IMG/VR virus record: IMGVR_UViG_3300021440_000057
Coordinates: 1 to 41,908 of that record
DNA length: 41,908 nt
Strand: one strand, 5' to 3'
Source of the DNA: a virus
Program-made: the position numbers and the translations under genes
Part shown: positions 5,062 to 37,793 of the stretch, piece by piece
Layout of the letters: every line of letters starts with the position of its first letter
Position numbering within the stretch: position 1 is the first letter of the stretch
The notes under the pieces: model-generated
The model's input: only the letters and a program-made list of their open reading frames with translations
Told to the model about the DNA's origin: nothing
The model's database searches: none

Positions 5062-6288
<1,227 letters not shown>

Positions 6289-16147: not shown

Positions 16148-18142
16148 ATGAACCCTTTTGCAGATTTAATCCCAACACAAAAAACAAATTCTGCACCTGC
16201 AACTCCAGATCTAGCAGGGAATCCTTTTGCGGATTTGACCCCCGGATATCAGTCTCCAACGACTGTGGTGGCTTCGTCAGTTCCAGAGAAGAAAAAGAGT
16301 GCTGTGGGAGAGATGGCAAAAAGTCTTATATCTGCTCCAGCAACAATTCTCGCTCGACCATTTCAGGCAGCAGAAGGACTTGTGCAATACGCTCAAGACA
16401 AACCTAAAATTGATGAATTCAAACAACTTAGCCATGACATTCTAGCCGAGCAAGATGATCTTGTTCTTCAATTGCGCGCAGCTAGAGCAGAGGGGCGAGA
16501 TGCTACTGATATTCGAAATCGCATACAAGCAAACACAGAGAAGTTGACCCAGCTTAGTGCTGGTATTCAGCCTACTATTGATCGCCGACCTACTCTATTC
16601 AAGGGGAGTGATATCGTTGCTGCAACCCCAGAAAATATGGGAGATGTGAAAAAGGACGTAGGACGAGCTATTCAGACTGTTGCCCTTGGTACCGGCGCTC
16701 CTCTCGCTGGAGGTGCAGCATTCGGTCTTGGAAGCTCCCTAGAGCAAGGAAATGACCTATTTAGTGCCCAGACTGCCTTTAACACGGTGCTTGGTGCTGG
16801 AGCTGGTAAGATAATCGACTTGGTTGGAAAACCTCTCTTTAACGCGGCTGGAAAGGTCGTAGGGACCATTACTCCACAGATACTCAAAGATGTTGCAGGA
16901 AAGGGGGCTACAGCCATTACAGACTTCGCAGCGCGGCATGAGCTTCTTGGTGGGGTTGCAAAACCTCTTTCAGAGAAGATTGCTACTGGATTCCAAGCTG
17001 TCGATGACAATGCTGGAAAACTATTCAAAGGTACAGGATCAAAGATGAAGGAAGTTATCTCATCTCAATATCCGGGGCTTTCAAAAGAAAATCTCCAGAA
17101 TCGCTACACTCGTATCGAGCAAGAGAACTTTGCCAAGCCTACAGAGAAGCCAGATGCAGCGTACCGTAAAGCTACTGAATTGTATAAAAATGCAAAAGAG
17201 GGTGGTACAGATCTTTCAAAAGTGGCTACTGATAGTCGAATCCGCCATGACTCAATCATCGAAGGTAACAAATACAACACAACTGATACAGCAGATTCTC
17301 TACGTACTGATGCGATGCAAACCTCTCGTGATTTGATTCGTCCAGCATTGGCAGCAGCAGAGCCGGGAGTACAACGGATTCCTATCTCACAGGTTCGTGA
17401 GACTATTCTTAGCCAAATTGATAACATTCCAGCTACACAGATTACCGATGCGGAACGTGCAATGATGAAACGTCGTATTGCTACAGAGTATGCTGATGCA
17501 TCTCCTGCAGCGGTTGCTCATCCAAATGGATTCTCTTTGACTGATCTTCACGATAATAAAATTAGTACCTCTCTTAATGCGAAGTACAAACCTCTCGGAA
17601 CTATCGCTGACAATTTGAAAGCAAAACAAAATAAACAGGCTAGTGATGCCTTCCGGAAACTTCTTGAAGATAATGCTCCTGCAGAATTGGATATCAAAGC
17701 ATTTAACAAAAAGCTTCAAGAGAAATTCCAACTTGCTGATTACCTTGAAGCGTTGCACGGCAAAAAAGTCCCAATGGGACTTGTATCAAAAGCTATCGAT
17801 TTGTTCGGTAAAGTAGCTGGTGCTTCTGCTGGTTCTAGTGTTGCAGGAGGTCTTGGTGGAGTTGCTGGATATCACCTTGGTGGAGTATTCTTTGATGCAT
17901 TTGAGCATCTTCCAAACCCATTGAAGGCAAAGTACCTCAATTCGATTGAGAAGGCTACTCCAGAGGTCTTCCAAGCATTCAAAGACTATCTCGGTAAGCA
18001 AGAGATGGAACGAATTCTTCGAAGAAAACTCCCAGCTCCAACAACGATATTCCAAGGTCCTACACAGGGTGGTAAGCCATATACTCCAAACCCATTGTTC
18101 TCTACTACTCCTATCGTTGAAACAAAACAAGTAAGACAATAA
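16148..18142 (+). CDS. Large putative internal virion / DNA ejection protein
   Basis: A 664-aa protein, last of the late module. The N-terminus has two NPFADL repeats (about 2-7 and 25-30) and disordered Pro/Thr linkers. Long charged helices follow. Gly/Ala-rich hydrophobic stretches lie near residues 175-200 (GTGAPLAGGAAFGLGSSL) and 555-585 (GASAGSSVAGGLGGVAGYHL), which could insert into membranes. This mix is typical of ejected pilot proteins of short-tailed phages. No catalytic motif is seen. Its stop codon is embedded in the terminator that closes the module. Confidence 0.65.
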   Translation: MNPFADLIPTQKTNSAPATPDLAGNPFADLTPGYQSPTTVVASSVPEKKKSAVGEMAKSLISAPATILARPFQAAEGLVQYAQDKPKIDEFKQLSHDILAEQDDLVLQLRAARAEGRDATDIRNRIQANTEKLTQLSAGIQPTIDRRPTLFKGSDIVAATPENMGDVKKDVGRAIQTVALGTGAPLAGGAAFGLGSSLEQGNDLFSAQTAFNTVLGAGAGKIIDLVGKPLFNAAGKVVGTITPQILKDVAGKGATAITDFAARHELLGGVAKPLSEKIATGFQAVDDNAGKLFKGTGSKMKEVISSQYPGLSKENLQNRYTRIEQENFAKPTEKPDAAYRKATELYKNAKEGGTDLSKVATDSRIRHDSIIEGNKYNTTDTADSLRTDAMQTSRDLIRPALAAAEPGVQRIPISQVRETILSQIDNIPATQITDAERAMMKRRIATEYADASPAAVAHPNGFSLTDLHDNKISTSLNAKYKPLGTIADNLKAKQNKQASDAFRKLLEDNAPAELDIKAFNKKLQEKFQLADYLEALHGKKVPMGLVSKAIDLFGKVAGASAGSSVAGGLGGVAGYHLGGVFFDAFEHLPNPLKAKYLNSIEKATPEVFQAFKDYLGKQEMERILRRKLPAPTTIFQGPTQGGKPYTPNPLFSTTPIVETKQVRQ

Positions 18143-27118: not shown

Positions 27119-29509
27119 TTAGAAGTTGTCTAGCGGAGATGATGGCTGATAAGCTTTTTCATCCGACCACGTAGGATTTATTATTACTCCTTCAAACTTA
27201 GCCGAGTCGTGCCCGTTCTCTCGTTCGACCGGAACGAATTTGCCGTATCGTTTTCCGTATGCTCGCATCTCTTTTGAGAAAGCAATATTACCTTTGAATT
27301 TTCGACCGTCTTTAATACAGTATTGTTTGTATTCTTCGTAGAGTTTTCGAGCTGGAGTAATTTCCCCTTCCACGAATTCCAAACATTCCCCGATGAATCC
27401 TTCGACAGATGAGTTCTCTTCACGGTATTCGATAAGAGAGTTTTGTTGCTCTTTCGTAACTGTGAATTTCTTTTCTTCTCGAAGACTCTTCGCACCATCG
27501 AGCATCCAATTCAAAATCCCAGAAAGTTCCGTTGCAAGAACCCCATAAGAGAATCGAAGAGATGTGTTTGGATTGTCTCGGAAGTTGTTGTTGAAATTCA
27601 CCACCATGATACGGCGTTCGGTTGCAGTCGATGAATCATCCACGCGGGGCATTGTGTTCACCGCAAAGATAAACTTTGCTTGCGGTTTGAATTTGAATTG
27701 GTCCTTGTACTTCATATTGATAGTAAGCTCTTCCCCAGAGATAAGCTTCTTCAATTTGTGTGATTGGTAGTAGTTACCAGAGACCTCTTCAATCACGTTG
27801 AGCCGTTTTCCGATAAGCCCTTTCAGTCCGAATGTAGAGTACAAGTCTTCAAGGTCAATGCGTGATGTTGCTTCATCACCCATTACCATTGAGATTGTGT
27901 CCGCAAAAGTAGACTTTCCGTTTCCACCGTCTCCGACTAGAAATAGCGCCTTGGCATAGATCATAGAAGATGAAAGCAAGTAGCCAGAGAATTGCTGGAG
28001 CATAAGCTTTTTCTTTTCTGATTCGTCTCCCTCCATCCATGCATCAAGACACTCTAGGAATGTTGGGCAGGTAGCAGATGGGTTGTAGTCGACAGGACAT
28101 TGCACCATAGAGACAAAGTCCGGAGTGTGCGGGATTAATTCTCGGGTGTAGATATTGAGCAGTCCATTTTTCACATTACAAATATACCCTCGGTCATCAG
28201 TCAGTATGAGATCGGGGATGATTGAAAGCAAACATGCGATTTTATCTTTGACGTTTTTGGTAGTTCGATACCCCCAGAGCATATCTTCATAGAGCGCATT
28301 GAGCACGATATTTGAAAGTTCTTGGTCCGTCATCATTTTGTACACGCCGTTCACGTAATTGAATATGATACCCACCTCGTTCTTTTTGAGATGCGGATAG
28401 CGAGATGCAATTTCGTGTTCGTAGTTTGAGAAGCGAGTCTTGTCGACTTCCTTTCGATCCTTGGCAACAGCGGTATACACAGAAGAGATTTTTTGTTGCT
28501 CTTCTGGAGTCATATTGAATGCGATTATTTCATTCTTATATGAGTAGGTATATCCAGTCTGGTACGCAGAATTGATGGTGTTTATTATTTCTTGTCGTCC
28601 ACCGTTTTCCTTTTCGATACCGTGCCAGCCCACCTCTTCGATGTGCTTTATAGCTTTCGCTTTACTCCACCCTGCTTGGCGCATCAGTGTGGCTGTAATT
28701 AGTAACGCTTGGTTACGGCTAACGATATTAGGGGGAAGTGTGCCCGGTTCTCCAGAGATAAGTTTTTTAAAACTCTCTCGGTTCTCCATTGGGTATTTTT
28801 CGTTTACTCGATCAAAGAAGTCTTTTCTTTCAGCATCAGCATATTTTTTCAGATTATCATTTGTTGGGTTTGAGGGGAATGACAAAACCTCTTGTACTGG
28901 CGGGAATGCTTCTGCCATTTGGTCCATTGTGTAATTGGCAGAGATGTTTTTGTAAAGACCTTTGATTCTAAACGGTGCGTTTTTTACTCCTTGCTTGTAA
29001 GCATCGCCTGATTTTTTCCAATAGTAAGTATCAGGAATACGCATGATGCGAGTCAAGTCTTTTACTACAGGATCAGCTTTTAGTGTGGTAACAATTGATT
29101 GCTCAATACGCTCCCACTTTGCGACGATATTCTCCCATGTCTCCTCTCCAAAGATTTCGTCTTTGTAGATAGGCTCGTCAAGAAGCCAATAAATATGGTA
29201 GCCGTTTTTTGTTTCAAGAATGAAAGTAGGTTCAAGTTTTTCTTTAATAAATTCCAATTCTTTTTCATCTTTTCTTCCGTCGATATCGACAAAGAAAGCG
29301 TTCAATGATGAGCAATGGTCCTTCTTTGCGTCCGATGCATTTTTAAAACCGTTTACAGTAAAGTATGCTTCGTATCCTTCGACGTTCAAGTCATCTCTTC
29401 GTGTTGTCGAAGAGACCGGTGCTCGACCATTTCCTGTTTGATCAATATAGCGGTATACGTGATCCGGGAATGAGTCTAAGAATTTGAATTTTGCATTAGG
29501 ATTTTGCAT
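27119..29509 (-). CDS. Primase (AEP-like) - SF3 helicase replication protein
   Basis: A 796-aa replication protein. The N-terminal domain shows FVDIDGRKDEKEL (73-85), a D-x-D metal motif, and ILETKNGYHIYWLLDEP (97-113), as in archaeo-eukaryotic-type primases. The middle is helical (PriCT-like). A D5/P4-type helicase follows with Walker A LVGDGGNGKSTF (about 523-534) and LNVIEEVSGNYYQSHKLKKL (Walker B region). FIFAVNTMPRVDD (about 611-623) is the sensor motif. It should prime and unwind DNA. It is the only primase seen, and no DNA polymerase gene accompanies it. Confidence 0.92.
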   Translation of the reverse strand: MQNPNAKFKFLDSFPDHVYRYIDQTGNGRAPVSSTTRRDDLNVEGYEAYFTVNGFKNASDAKKDHCSSLNAFFVDIDGRKDEKELEFIKEKLEPTFILETKNGYHIYWLLDEPIYKDEIFGEETWENIVAKWERIEQSIVTTLKADPVVKDLTRIMRIPDTYYWKKSGDAYKQGVKNAPFRIKGLYKNISANYTMDQMAEAFPPVQEVLSFPSNPTNDNLKKYADAERKDFFDRVNEKYPMENRESFKKLISGEPGTLPPNIVSRNQALLITATLMRQAGWSKAKAIKHIEEVGWHGIEKENGGRQEIINTINSAYQTGYTYSYKNEIIAFNMTPEEQQKISSVYTAVAKDRKEVDKTRFSNYEHEIASRYPHLKKNEVGIIFNYVNGVYKMMTDQELSNIVLNALYEDMLWGYRTTKNVKDKIACLLSIIPDLILTDDRGYICNVKNGLLNIYTRELIPHTPDFVSMVQCPVDYNPSATCPTFLECLDAWMEGDESEKKKLMLQQFSGYLLSSSMIYAKALFLVGDGGNGKSTFADTISMVMGDEATSRIDLEDLYSTFGLKGLIGKRLNVIEEVSGNYYQSHKLKKLISGEELTINMKYKDQFKFKPQAKFIFAVNTMPRVDDSSTATERRIMVVNFNNNFRDNPNTSLRFSYGVLATELSGILNWMLDGAKSLREEKKFTVTKEQQNSLIEYREENSSVEGFIGECLEFVEGEITPARKLYEEYKQYCIKDGRKFKGNIAFSKEMRAYGKRYGKFVPVERENGHDSAKFEGVIINPTWSDEKAYQPSSPLDNF

Positions 29510-30841: not shown

Positions 30842-31480
30842 TTAGAATCCCGGATCATCTTCGGTATTCAAGTCCTCTACGAATTTATCGAGAGCACTCT
30901 TTTCTTCCGGAGCTGATGCTTGTGCAAATTCACGCTTTGGCAATTTCGGCACGATTATAGTATCAACCATATTCTGCAAAAATGCCAATCGCTTTGTGTC
31001 ATCCCATACAAGCGCGCCTTTTACGGTTATTTGTTCCATATCAGGCATACCGTTTGGATTGTCCTTTGTGAAAGCGTGCTTCACCGGATTACCGTTTTGA
31101 TTAATGAACAATGACGAACGATTTTTTCCGTCGTCGCCCATCTTTACACTTGGAGATACTTTCATCTCTTGTGTAAGATCTACGTTCGGAAGCATTTTAA
31201 GAAATGCTGTTGCAAAAGAATTACTGTAACTCAATTGCAAGTGATACACATCTTCTCCGTCTTGAAAATCAAATAACCATGATTTTCCGTACGCGCCGTC
31301 TTGGGTACGAATACCGACAAGCTTGGCTGTGAAGCTATCGTAAAACTTTTCGTGTACGATCTTCCCTAATTTATTCTCACGTTGCTTTGCCCCTTCTGTA
31401 CCAGCTGGCACTCTCTGACAAAATTTACCATCAAGGATAGTAATAAAATTACCACCGTCGCCTCTATTTTCTAGTCCCAT
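30842..31480 (-). CDS. Putative single-stranded DNA-binding protein
   Basis: A 212-aa protein. The core (about 40-175) is beta-rich with aromatic residues (SWLFDFQDGEDVYHLQLSYS), consistent with an OB fold. The C-terminus is disordered and ends in an acidic tip (VEDLNTEDDPGF), the hallmark of SSB-type proteins that recruit partners through D-D-x-x-F. First gene after the 31582-31611 promoter, so strongly expressed. The OB call is by pattern only. Confidence 0.6.
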   Translation of the reverse strand: MGLENRGDGGNFITILDGKFCQRVPAGTEGAKQRENKLGKIVHEKFYDSFTAKLVGIRTQDGAYGKSWLFDFQDGEDVYHLQLSYSNSFATAFLKMLPNVDLTQEMKVSPSVKMGDDGKNRSSLFINQNGNPVKHAFTKDNPNGMPDMEQITVKGALVWDDTKRLAFLQNMVDTIIVPKLPKREFAQASAPEEKSALDKFVEDLNTEDDPGF

Positions 31481-35938: not shown

Positions 35939-36196
35939 TTATATATTAATTTTTTCTAAATTGTCCCATAGTTCTCGAAAGTTCACCGTTGCGATATCAA
36001 AGCCATCTTCGTCTCGTAGAGCTTTTAGCTCTGGCTCTTGTATTAAATTAATGAGCATAGACTTGAAAGATTTTGTAGTGTTCGCCTGTACGGCTATTTC
36101 GTATGCTCTTGTTGCGATCTCTTTTGATGTATTGTCGAGATGTAACTTTGTGAGCCATGTTGATCGGTTTGACCATCCATTATATTTTGTTTCCAT
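35939..36196 (-). CDS. Small early phage protein (NGWSNRSTW type)
   Basis: An 85-aa protein opening KYNGWSNRSTWLTKLHLDN, the signature of a widespread small phage family with Asn-Gly-Trp, Asn-Arg-x-Thr-Trp and Leu-Asp-Asn residues and no assigned function. A helical middle and an acidic tail follow. A long A/T-rich hairpin lies in its leader (36219-36258). Confidence 0.75.
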   Translation of the reverse strand: METKYNGWSNRSTWLTKLHLDNTSKEIATRAYEIAVQANTTKSFKSMLINLIQEPELKALRDEDGFDIATVNFRELWDNLEKINI

Positions 36197-36218
36197 AGTG
36201 TTTTTATATTTTCCGCTT

Positions 36219-36258
36219 AATCTCTATATTTGTGCTTGTGAGTACATATATAGAGATT
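36219..36258 (-). promoter_or_regulatory. Perfect 11-bp hairpin in an early leader
   Basis: AATCTCTATAT (36219-36229) and ATATAGAGATT (36248-36258) with an 18-base loop. It lies between the 42-aa membrane gene and the 85-aa gene, about 22 bases before ATG 36196. No T-run follows, so a role in mRNA processing, attenuation or repression is more likely than termination. Confidence 0.55.
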
Positions 36259-36301
36259 GAACGGCACAAGCTGATAAAATAGGTTTTTTGTATCACAAGC
36301 C

Positions 36302-36430
36302 CTATTGCGCAATTTTAATGATTGCATGGCAGAAGATCACGAACCCGAGAGAGCAGATAGCCATGGCGACTATAAAGCCTCTGTAGTAGTGATAGCGTCT
36401 CGCCTTTGGATCGATGTCGTTATACTTCAT
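36302..36430 (-). CDS. Micro-gene: 42-aa single-pass membrane protein
   Basis: ATG 36430 to TAG 36304-36302. A basic N-terminus (KYNDIDPKARRYHYYRG) is followed by one hydrophobic helix (FIVAMAICSLGFVIFCHAII). By position it is the first gene of the early operon, behind the 36482-36511 promoter. First-expressed membrane peptides often act on host or superinfecting phage, but no evidence here shows that. Confidence 0.62.
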   Translation of the reverse strand: MKYNDIDPKARRYHYYRGFIVAMAICSLGFVIFCHAIIKIAQ

Positions 36431-36481
36431 TTTGTTAGTGTGCTTTTTATTAATGTGTAGGACTTCGACTGTCCTATATAT

Positions 36482-36511
36482 AGGTTAGCATATAAGCGGT
36501 GTCGGTGTCAA
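36482..36511 (-). promoter_or_regulatory. Early promoter with tandem GGTGTC operator
   Basis: On the minus strand TTGACA (36511-36506) with GACACC repeat, an 18-base spacer, then a weak TAACCT -10 with an upstream TG (36487-36482). GGTGTCGGTGTCAA at 36498-36511 is identical to 24323-24336. A DnaA-box TGTGGATAA at 36521-36529 lies at nearly the same distance as in the 24.3 kb copy. Confidence 0.6.
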
Positions 36512-36581
36512 ATATAGGGGTGTGGATAAGTCTTGCTATAAGGTATGACGGTGGGATGGGCTTATATGTGGGGGGATGGGG

Positions 36582-36953
36582 CGGGGCAGATGGATTGCGA
36601 AAAGTTGTCAAGGGGTGCTTTCTTGCCCCGAAAAAAGGGGGACCTGTTGGGATTGGGGGAAAAAGGACCGGACGGGCTACGTAGAAATAAGGCTTAAACG
36701 GGGCAGATGATTTTTTTTTTCATTTGCCCCGATTTGCCCCGCCCGAAAAAAGCCTTATTTTATAAGGATTGCTATTGACGTGTGTACGTTTTGTATTGTC
36801 GTATTGACCTTATAGCGTAAGGGTTCCTAGTTTGCCCCGTTTAACCCTTATTTTATAAGCCTTAAACGGGGCAGATAAATTTTTTTTCAACCTTTTAATA
36901 TACAAATATTTTAAAAATAAAAACTTCCTAAAATCATTTGCCCCTTTGCCCCG
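36582..36953. repeat. Iteron-like cluster: nine TTGCCCC/GGGGCA repeats
   Basis: TTGCCCCG (or T at the last base) occurs at 36624, 36724, 36734, 36832, 36938 and 36946; CGGGGCA at 36582, 36699 and 36867. The 16-bp CTTAAACGGGGCAGAT is a direct repeat at 36693 and 36861; CCTTATTTTATAAG repeats at 36753 and 36846. Inverted repeats are AAATAAGGCTT (36685/36750) and TGCCCCGTTTAA (36833/36862). Poly-T tracts and A/T-rich DNA surround them. No credible gene is present. Origin, pac site or late-regulator binding region are the options. Confidence 0.75.
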
Positions 36954-37295
36954 TGTGGTGTAATGTTGCCCTGATTCTCTGCACTCTCTGTTGTTGTGAT
37001 TGTGGTCCATTCTGGGGTCCATGTATGGGGATGGATATGCCATGCCATTGATATAATTTTTTTTATTTTTTTGTAATATTTTTTATAGGATTTCTTTTTA
37101 ATCAAGAGAGGACTAGGGGGAGACCCCTTCAACCAGACCCCCGGGTAAATTGTAAAAAAAGAGTCCCTTAACCCCCTCCTTAAAACAACCCTCCTCTTGC
37201 ATAGATCACCCACCCCCATCTTGTTTTTAAAAAACTCTTTCAAAAAAATCCCCAGAGAAATTTCCCATAAATTTTTTTCATGTTATAGTTAAGGT
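36954..37295. other. Non-coding A/T-rich and low-complexity leader before the terminase genes
   Basis: No credible gene on either strand; open frames here start at TTG and encode low-complexity sequence. Homopolymer tracts of A, T, C and G are common (for example near 37100-37160). TATAGT at 37284-37289 lies six bases before ATG 37296 and may be a -10 box, but no good -35 box is seen. Confidence 0.5.
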
Positions 37296-37793
37296 ATGAA
37301 GAGACCACAAAAAGGTTCTACAGTAAAACAGTTTGCCTATGCTCAAAAGCTTTTTAATGGAGACGGCAGGAGTAAGAAAGAGATTGCTCGCTCTGTAGGT
37401 TTTTCTCCATCTGTTTCTAACAATGTGCACAACAAAATAGAAAAAACGGAAGGATTCCAAAACGCTATGATAGTTATGGCTACGAGATCCAACAATCTCG
37501 TGTTGGCAGCTATGGCTGAATATGAAGCGCGTGGCTTTACGGAGTTCTCAAACAAAGATCTCAACGGGGCATTGAATGCAATTGCTACCGCGTGGGAGAG
37601 AATAAACAAACAGCGTGGCGAGGGAGAGAATAAGGACCCAGAGAAGAATCCTCTGCGTAAGGTCTTTATGCAAAAGGTCGAGAATCAAACAATCAATATG
37701 AACCCGGTAAATACTCCGTCTGCTGTAACGGTTGAAGCAACGGAAGTGAAAGAAGCGGAGACTGTTGAAGAAATGCCAGATTTAGATTTTTAA
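37296..37793 (+). CDS. Terminase small subunit
   Basis: A 165-aa protein binding phage DNA to start packaging. An N-terminal helix-turn-helix (SKKEIARSVGFSPSVSNNVH, about 27-46) is followed by a helical oligomerisation core and an acidic tail (EVKEAETVEEMPDLDF) that could contact the large subunit. It lies directly before the large terminase gene (3 bases apart) and next to the repeat cluster, which may hold its binding sites. Confidence 0.75.
   Translation: MKRPQKGSTVKQFAYAQKLFNGDGRSKKEIARSVGFSPSVSNNVHNKIEKTEGFQNAMIVMATRSNNLVLAAMAEYEARGFTEFSNKDLNGALNAIATAWERINKQRGEGENKDPEKNPLRKVFMQKVENQTINMNPVNTPSAVTVEATEVKEAETVEEMPDLDF

Follow-up and report, generated by a model that had tools for sequence, protein, structure and literature searches.

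A probable initiator-helicase replication origin of P4/PICI type at the early/late junction of a phage genome

The origins of PICI/SaPI elements consist of two sets of iterons around an AT-rich region, an organisation described as known in no other bacterial replicon (PMC6092414). In P4, primase, helicase and a C-terminal winged-helix origin-binding domain are joined in a single polypeptide, the alpha protein, which binds repeats, unwinds the DNA and primes synthesis (PMC4234260), and SaPI Rep and SCCmec Cch2 also bind their iterons through the C-terminal domain (PMC7581432). RFX1 is a known case in which the wing of such a domain, not its helix, reads the DNA major groove (PMC4333399), and the iteron-Rep pairs of geminiviruses show iteron positions that are conserved and iteron sequences that have diversified among close relatives (PMC12548392). 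A search of open-access text found no earlier description of a P4/PICI-type initiator-helicase origin in the phage family considered here. The DNA analyzed (hereafter the window) spans an entire virus record, 41,908 bp in length, which carries its own terS and terL genes and ends inside a long open frame past terL that occupies the place of the portal gene. A repeat array in this window is most likely, from sequence comparison, a P4/PICI-type origin with an initiator helicase.

The repeat array and its setting

The array lies in a non-coding region of 1.1 kb (36197-37295) that, according to the ORF list, separates the early module on the minus strand, whose first gene spans 35939-36196, from the late module on the plus strand, where terS (37296-37793) starts the terS-terL late genes. 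Predicted ORFs over the array are overlapping fragments only, of 61-110 aa. GGGGCA/TGCCCC occurs nine times within 36583-36952 (about 370 bp), half of its 18 occurrences in the 41.9-kb window, and six of these nine copies have the form TTGCCCC. Shuffling of the whole window gave totals with a mean of 9 and a maximum of 17, and among 2,000 random 372-bp sequences with the local dinucleotide content only two contained nine copies of any hexamer with at least three G/C. Longer repeats are superimposed on these copies, namely exact direct repeats of 16 bp (CTTAAACGGGGCAGAT, at 36693 and 36861) and 14 bp (CCTTATTTTATAAG, at 36753 and 36846) and perfect inverted repeats of 12 bp (TTAAACGGGGCA, 36694 and 36862 against 36833) and 11 bp (AAATAAGGCTT, 36685 against 36750). 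The setting between the early and late modules beside terS, the nine copies in about 372 bp and all four longer repeats had been reported in a preliminary description of this DNA, and each was borne out; the strongest support for taking the array as real is its recurrence in related phages, described below.

The nine copies are arranged in modules. Iterons 1 (CGGGGCAGATGG, 36583-36588, plus strand) and 2 (CGGGGCAAGAAA, 36624-36629, minus) are paired as module A, and iterons 3 (CGGGGCAGATGA, 36700-36705, plus), 4 (CGGGGCAAATGA, 36725-36730, minus) and 5 (CGGGGCAAATCG, 36735-36740, minus) form module B. These are followed by iteron 6 (CGGGGCAAACTA, 36833-36838, minus), iteron 7 (CGGGGCAGATAA, 36868-36873, plus), iteron 8 (AGGGGCAAATGA, 36939-36944, minus) and iteron 9 (CGGGGCAAAGGG, 36947-36952, minus). 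Iterons 7 and 8, in opposite orientation, are the left and right borders of an AT-rich core of 65 bp (36874-36938, 86% AT), the presumed unwinding element, which is equalled in AT content by only 0.01% of the 65-bp windows of the genome. The 14-bp direct repeat is itself a palindrome that serves as a linker (36753-36766 and again 36846-36859), and CCTTAT/ATAAGG linkers related to it were seen by eye between the iteron modules of several relatives. At 36521-36529 (minus), 62 bp ahead of iteron 1, there is a perfect DnaA box (TTATCCACA), and the functional unit is slightly larger than the interval first noted, as it takes in this box.

Other analyses of the region contributed little. A promoter and terminator scan gave matches at chance level, including four sigma-70-like ones of which one overlaps the array; a search of the array region against Rfam returned no family above threshold, and a blastn search of the region against named phages returned zero matches. 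The GC-skew analysis proposed in the preliminary description did place the minimum near the array (35264); it was rejected as evidence for an origin, since the direction of transcription also changes there. A further inverted repeat, of 24 bp with a 4-nt loop, lies at 36213-36264, past the first early gene and ahead of the array. Elsewhere in the window, the early operon encodes a match to Tad3, an inhibitor of type I Thoeris anti-phage defence (20613-21203, minus; Pfam PF25185, E 8.8e-24), and the late module encodes a collagen-repeat protein (5062-6288, plus) that is probably a fibre.

The array and its word across related phages

Searches of IMG/VR with TerL and the primase-helicase yielded more than 100 relatives, and about 45 contigs carried the same kind of array at the corresponding divergent junction; as some contigs are near-duplicates, about 40 are distinct. 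In these phages the array comprises 4-13 iteron copies in inverted pairs whose order is broadly constant (++- / +-- / +(core)--), and one inverted pair surrounds a core of 60-127 bp with 66-89% AT in 43 of the 51 contigs examined. The primase-helicase gene and the array were both present in all ten of the near-complete TerL-bearing contigs listed, most of which are 40-46 kb long; the contigs that bear the D5 gene and lack terL are fragments that contain no array, and were therefore unusable as a hold-out. The distance from array to terS varies amongst the relatives from about 30 to about 900 bp. An exact copy of the DnaA box, always oriented alike, lies 55-120 bp ahead of the array in each of the seven phages that make up the window's clade (W, L004, L005, L007, L008, L009 and L011), and is not general outside that clade.

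The inverted arms that border the core often run well past the iteron (in L066, L134, L031 and others; for example, GAGGCATAAGGGGGG ... CCCCCCTTATGCCTC in L031), which suggests overlapping second iterons or extended contacts. Some relatives also contain dense arrays of short words unlike the iterons (L040 at 760-1076, L041, L052, L091 at 17844-18133 and L027 from 4433), with words such as ACAAGAG (15 copies), AACTCTG (20 copies) and CATGAGC (11-12 copies).

Iterons generally have the form NNNNCA plus about four further bases, in many cases TAAG. The four bases ahead of CA depend on the phage, and GGGG, GGGA, GTGG, GTGA, GGAG, ACGG, TAGG, CAGG, AGGG, GAGG, CCAA and TCGA were all recorded, in full words that include GGGGCA, GGGACA, GTGGCA, GTGACA, TAGGCA and CCAACA. 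Within any one phage most copies agree, and only a few phages (e.g., L074/L083) mix GGGG and GGGA. The comparison of L036 with L150 is the clearest example, as their cores are recognisably homologous and GGGGCA is exchanged for GGGACA at nearly every iteron. Scattered copies that change in concert imply a reader acting in trans, and the sequences thus point to recognition of the array by a trans-acting factor. The same observation bears on the notion that the inverted pairs form RNA or DNA hairpins (a structural RNA or a single-strand origin) with changes compensatory inside each hairpin, which we regard as barely credible: stems are possible and pairing is kept through base changes, but intramolecular pairing does not require separate pairs in one phage to shift to the same word, no Rfam family reached its threshold, and the word covaries with residues of a protein.

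The primase-helicase and its wing as the candidate reader

The proposed initiator is a P4-family primase-helicase (27119-29509, minus) with a primase-like N-terminal part, an SF3 (D5-type) helicase and a C-terminal winged helix. It matched NCBIfam TIGR01613 ('phage/plasmid primase, P4 family') with 213.6 bits against a cutoff of 108.7, and Pfam D5_N and Pox_D5 above cutoff. Its closest solved relative by sequence is the SaPI5 primase-helicase (7OLA), and its best whole-length structural matches are PrimPol structures of the archaeo-eukaryotic type. The gene lies about 7 kb from the array, which is on its 5' side. The matches from a scan of genome contigs were all weak and confined to the protein's N-terminal part, and indicated no host. 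Directly upstream of the gene, and overlapping its start, is a gene for a YopX-like phage protein (29496-29912, minus), and a nearby 212-aa protein (30842-31480, minus), kept in 30 of 33 primase-helicase loci and with no match in Pfam and a weak one in PHROG, could be a single-strand binding protein.

The C-terminal domain (residues 724-785; 27155-27340, minus) corresponds to Pfam Pox_D5. In the AlphaFold model (mean pLDDT 79.5) it has a recognition helix at residues 741-755 and a wing at about 762-770 (ERENGHDSA; 27200-27226, minus). In Foldseek this C-terminal model best matched the DNA-binding domain of RFX and 1KA8, the origin-binding domain of P4, the latter with a probability of 0.97, a TM score of 0.59-0.62 and a weak E value of 0.11. 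By its predicted fold, then, the protein has a P4-like C-terminal winged-helix origin-binding domain, and C-terminal iteron binding has its precedent in SaPI Rep and SCCmec Cch2.

Covariation between protein and iteron was examined in 23 distinct protein-iteron pairs by scanning every residue; the scan highlighted residues in the C-terminal domain of the primase-helicase, and the wing was singled out only afterwards. All 11 phages with GG-initial iterons have His767 and none of the 12 others does (Fisher 7e-7), with agreement in 5/5 independent contrasts; the next-best residue of the protein for this trait reached 3e-4. Correction over all residues and six traits brought the value for His767 to about 0.012, and none of 5,000 random labellings produced a perfect residue. 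As a control for shared ancestry, five other proteins supplied 292 pseudo-traits, each a column with no fewer tree changes (i.e., comparably homoplastic), and none of these gave a perfectly matching residue in the primase-helicase. For L020 and L050 the iteron word was assigned by eye with the rule already known; when these two and the held-out phage are removed, His767 still separates the groups (11/11 versus 0/9).

The three residues 765-767, which in the window are N765, G766 and H767 and fall in the wing of the modelled domain, follow the first four iteron bases more closely. SGH occurs with GGGA (5/5) and N[GN]H with GGGG (5/5), and, further, STH occurs with GGAG, NGK with GTGG and x-S-x with GTGA. 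The assignment of N765 to GGGG and S765 to GGGA is free of exceptions (5/5 each), but represents just two changes on the tree. Ser766 is found in all four GTGA phages (contrasts 4/4) and also in L050, which has an AAGA iteron. A held-out phage (L024/L224), fetched after the rule had been fixed, has a GTGA iteron and the wing NSG; it fits Ser766 and the absence of His767, and misses at 765, as HS[NG] had been written beforehand. Additionally, L029 and L077 have similar C-terminal domains with the wings ESGHDE and DHGSDE, respectively, and their iterons (GGGACACAAG and ACGGCACAAG) differ in the first four bases only. The link of residue 740 in the helix to the iteron is only suggestive, with G740 agreeing in just 2/4 contrasts. 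A wing-based code of this kind fits the way the wing of RFX1 reads DNA.

The signal is confined to a few residues of the winged helix and does not extend to the domain as a whole. Whole-protein Mantel comparisons of iteron distance with TerS, the primase-helicase, TerL and other early proteins showed nothing clear, and the score averaged over the winged-helix domain did not set it apart from the remainder of the protein (p ~0.1). Six other conserved early proteins compared by Mantel, three of them also residue by residue, showed no match to the iteron. These results weigh on the idea that the repeats are operators at which a phage regulator of the divergent early and late promoters binds, which we consider quite improbable. 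A position between divergent modules would suit such a regulator, and inverted sites would suit a dimeric repressor, but amongst the conserved early proteins compared only the primase-helicase covaries with the iterons, the four sigma-70-like matches in the region are no more than expected by chance, and 4-13 copies around an AT-rich core exceed what an operator needs. Autoregulation by the helicase could still be a secondary role of the array.

Very improbable, in our judgement, is a pac site at which the small terminase encoded by the adjacent gene binds the repeats and packaging begins. In the same genomes the best TerS residue reached only p = 5e-3 and the best TerL residue 2e-3, compared with 6e-6 for His767, and recognition of the array by TerS was not found, judged by covariation alone. 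L036 and L150 moreover share an identical TerS DNA-binding region and carry GGGG and GGGA iterons, respectively, the spacing between array and terS is highly variable, and an AT-rich core is unexpected in a pac site. These points outweigh the location of the array upstream of terS and the ubiquity of TerS, with its N-terminal helix-turn-helix-like region. The preliminary description had left the choice between a replication origin and a pac site; the former has gained from the iteron pairs around the AT-rich core, the conservation of the array and the covariation of iteron and winged helix, and the latter has lost to the lack of a matching TerS covariation and to the L036/L150 pair.

Proposed initiation and comparison with known systems

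Since wing residues covary with the iteron and TerS has no comparable match, the primase-helicase is the favoured reader. We consider it highly probable that the array is the replication origin of the phage and that the primase-helicase binds the iterons via its C-terminal winged helix, the wing at 765-767 reading bases 1-4. Both the binding of iterons by the helicase and the replication activity of the array are inferred here from sequence. The G/C-rich unit, which the preliminary description had found odd in an A/T-rich genome, would be the recognition word of the helicase, swapped for other words in relatives. Copies of the protein would bind the iterons, and two hexamers would assemble head to head on the inverted sites, an arrangement expected from the pairing of iterons around the AT-rich core. 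The hexamers would then melt the core and unwind outward, and the protein would prime both strands, giving bidirectional replication; hexamer assembly, melting and priming are proposed on the precedent of P4 alpha and SaPI Rep. Host DnaA may assist in the window's clade, where its box is conserved.

These observations amount to an initiator-origin recognition rule for an SF3 primase-helicase at the sequence level, drawn from natural variation alone, in a class of enzymes common to satellites, phages and large DNA viruses. They also place the iteron/AT-core/iteron layout, described as exclusive to PICIs, in a family of tailed phages, and indicate that sequence alone suffices to pair an origin with its reader. 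We lean slightly towards a broader interpretation, namely that this phage family has a satellite-type (PICI/P4) origin whose fast-diversifying word is read by an RFX-like wing, with residues 765-767 predicting much of the first half of the iteron. Switching of the word could block the sharing of initiators among co-infecting relatives or satellites, and the phages could be related to the source of the PICI replicon. The natural pairs of domain and iteron make origin specificity and the incompatibility of related phages testable.

Amongst described systems, iteron plasmid and lambda-type origins (RepA/TrfA, lambda O) resemble the array in having short protein-binding repeats by an AT-rich element and, in the window's clade, a DnaA box. 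The initiators RepA/TrfA and lambda O are not known to be helicases, and most of the iterons they bind are direct repeats lying to one side of the AT region. As in geminiviruses, iteron positions are kept here and iteron words have diversified; unlike this phage, geminiviruses are single-stranded DNA viruses of plants with a rolling-circle Rep, and the likeness implies no homology. P4 alpha is closer, as the window protein passes TIGR01613 and its C-terminal model matches the P4 origin-binding domain, although the match to the solved domain from the P4 satellite (ori/crr system) is structurally weak (E 0.1). The primase of P4 alpha is of the Toprim type (PMC4234260) and the primase part here apparently of the archaeo-eukaryotic type, so the initiator is a P4-family primase-helicase, not P4 alpha itself. 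The PICI/SaPI origins (such as those of SaPIbov1, SaPI5 and E. coli EcCICFT073) share with the array iterons around an AT-rich region and an SF3 helicase initiator, which binds them through its C-terminal domain in PICI/SaPI elements and is proposed to do so here. They belong to helper-dependent satellites and lie directly 3' of rep, whereas here the origin is located in a phage genome of about 42 kb with terminase genes of its own, some 7 kb from the initiator gene and at the early/late divergence, and has three inverted modules with iterons that vary strongly among close relatives. Altogether, the array would work like a PICI/P4 origin, yet by its phage genome and its distance from the initiator gene it is not a PICI origin.
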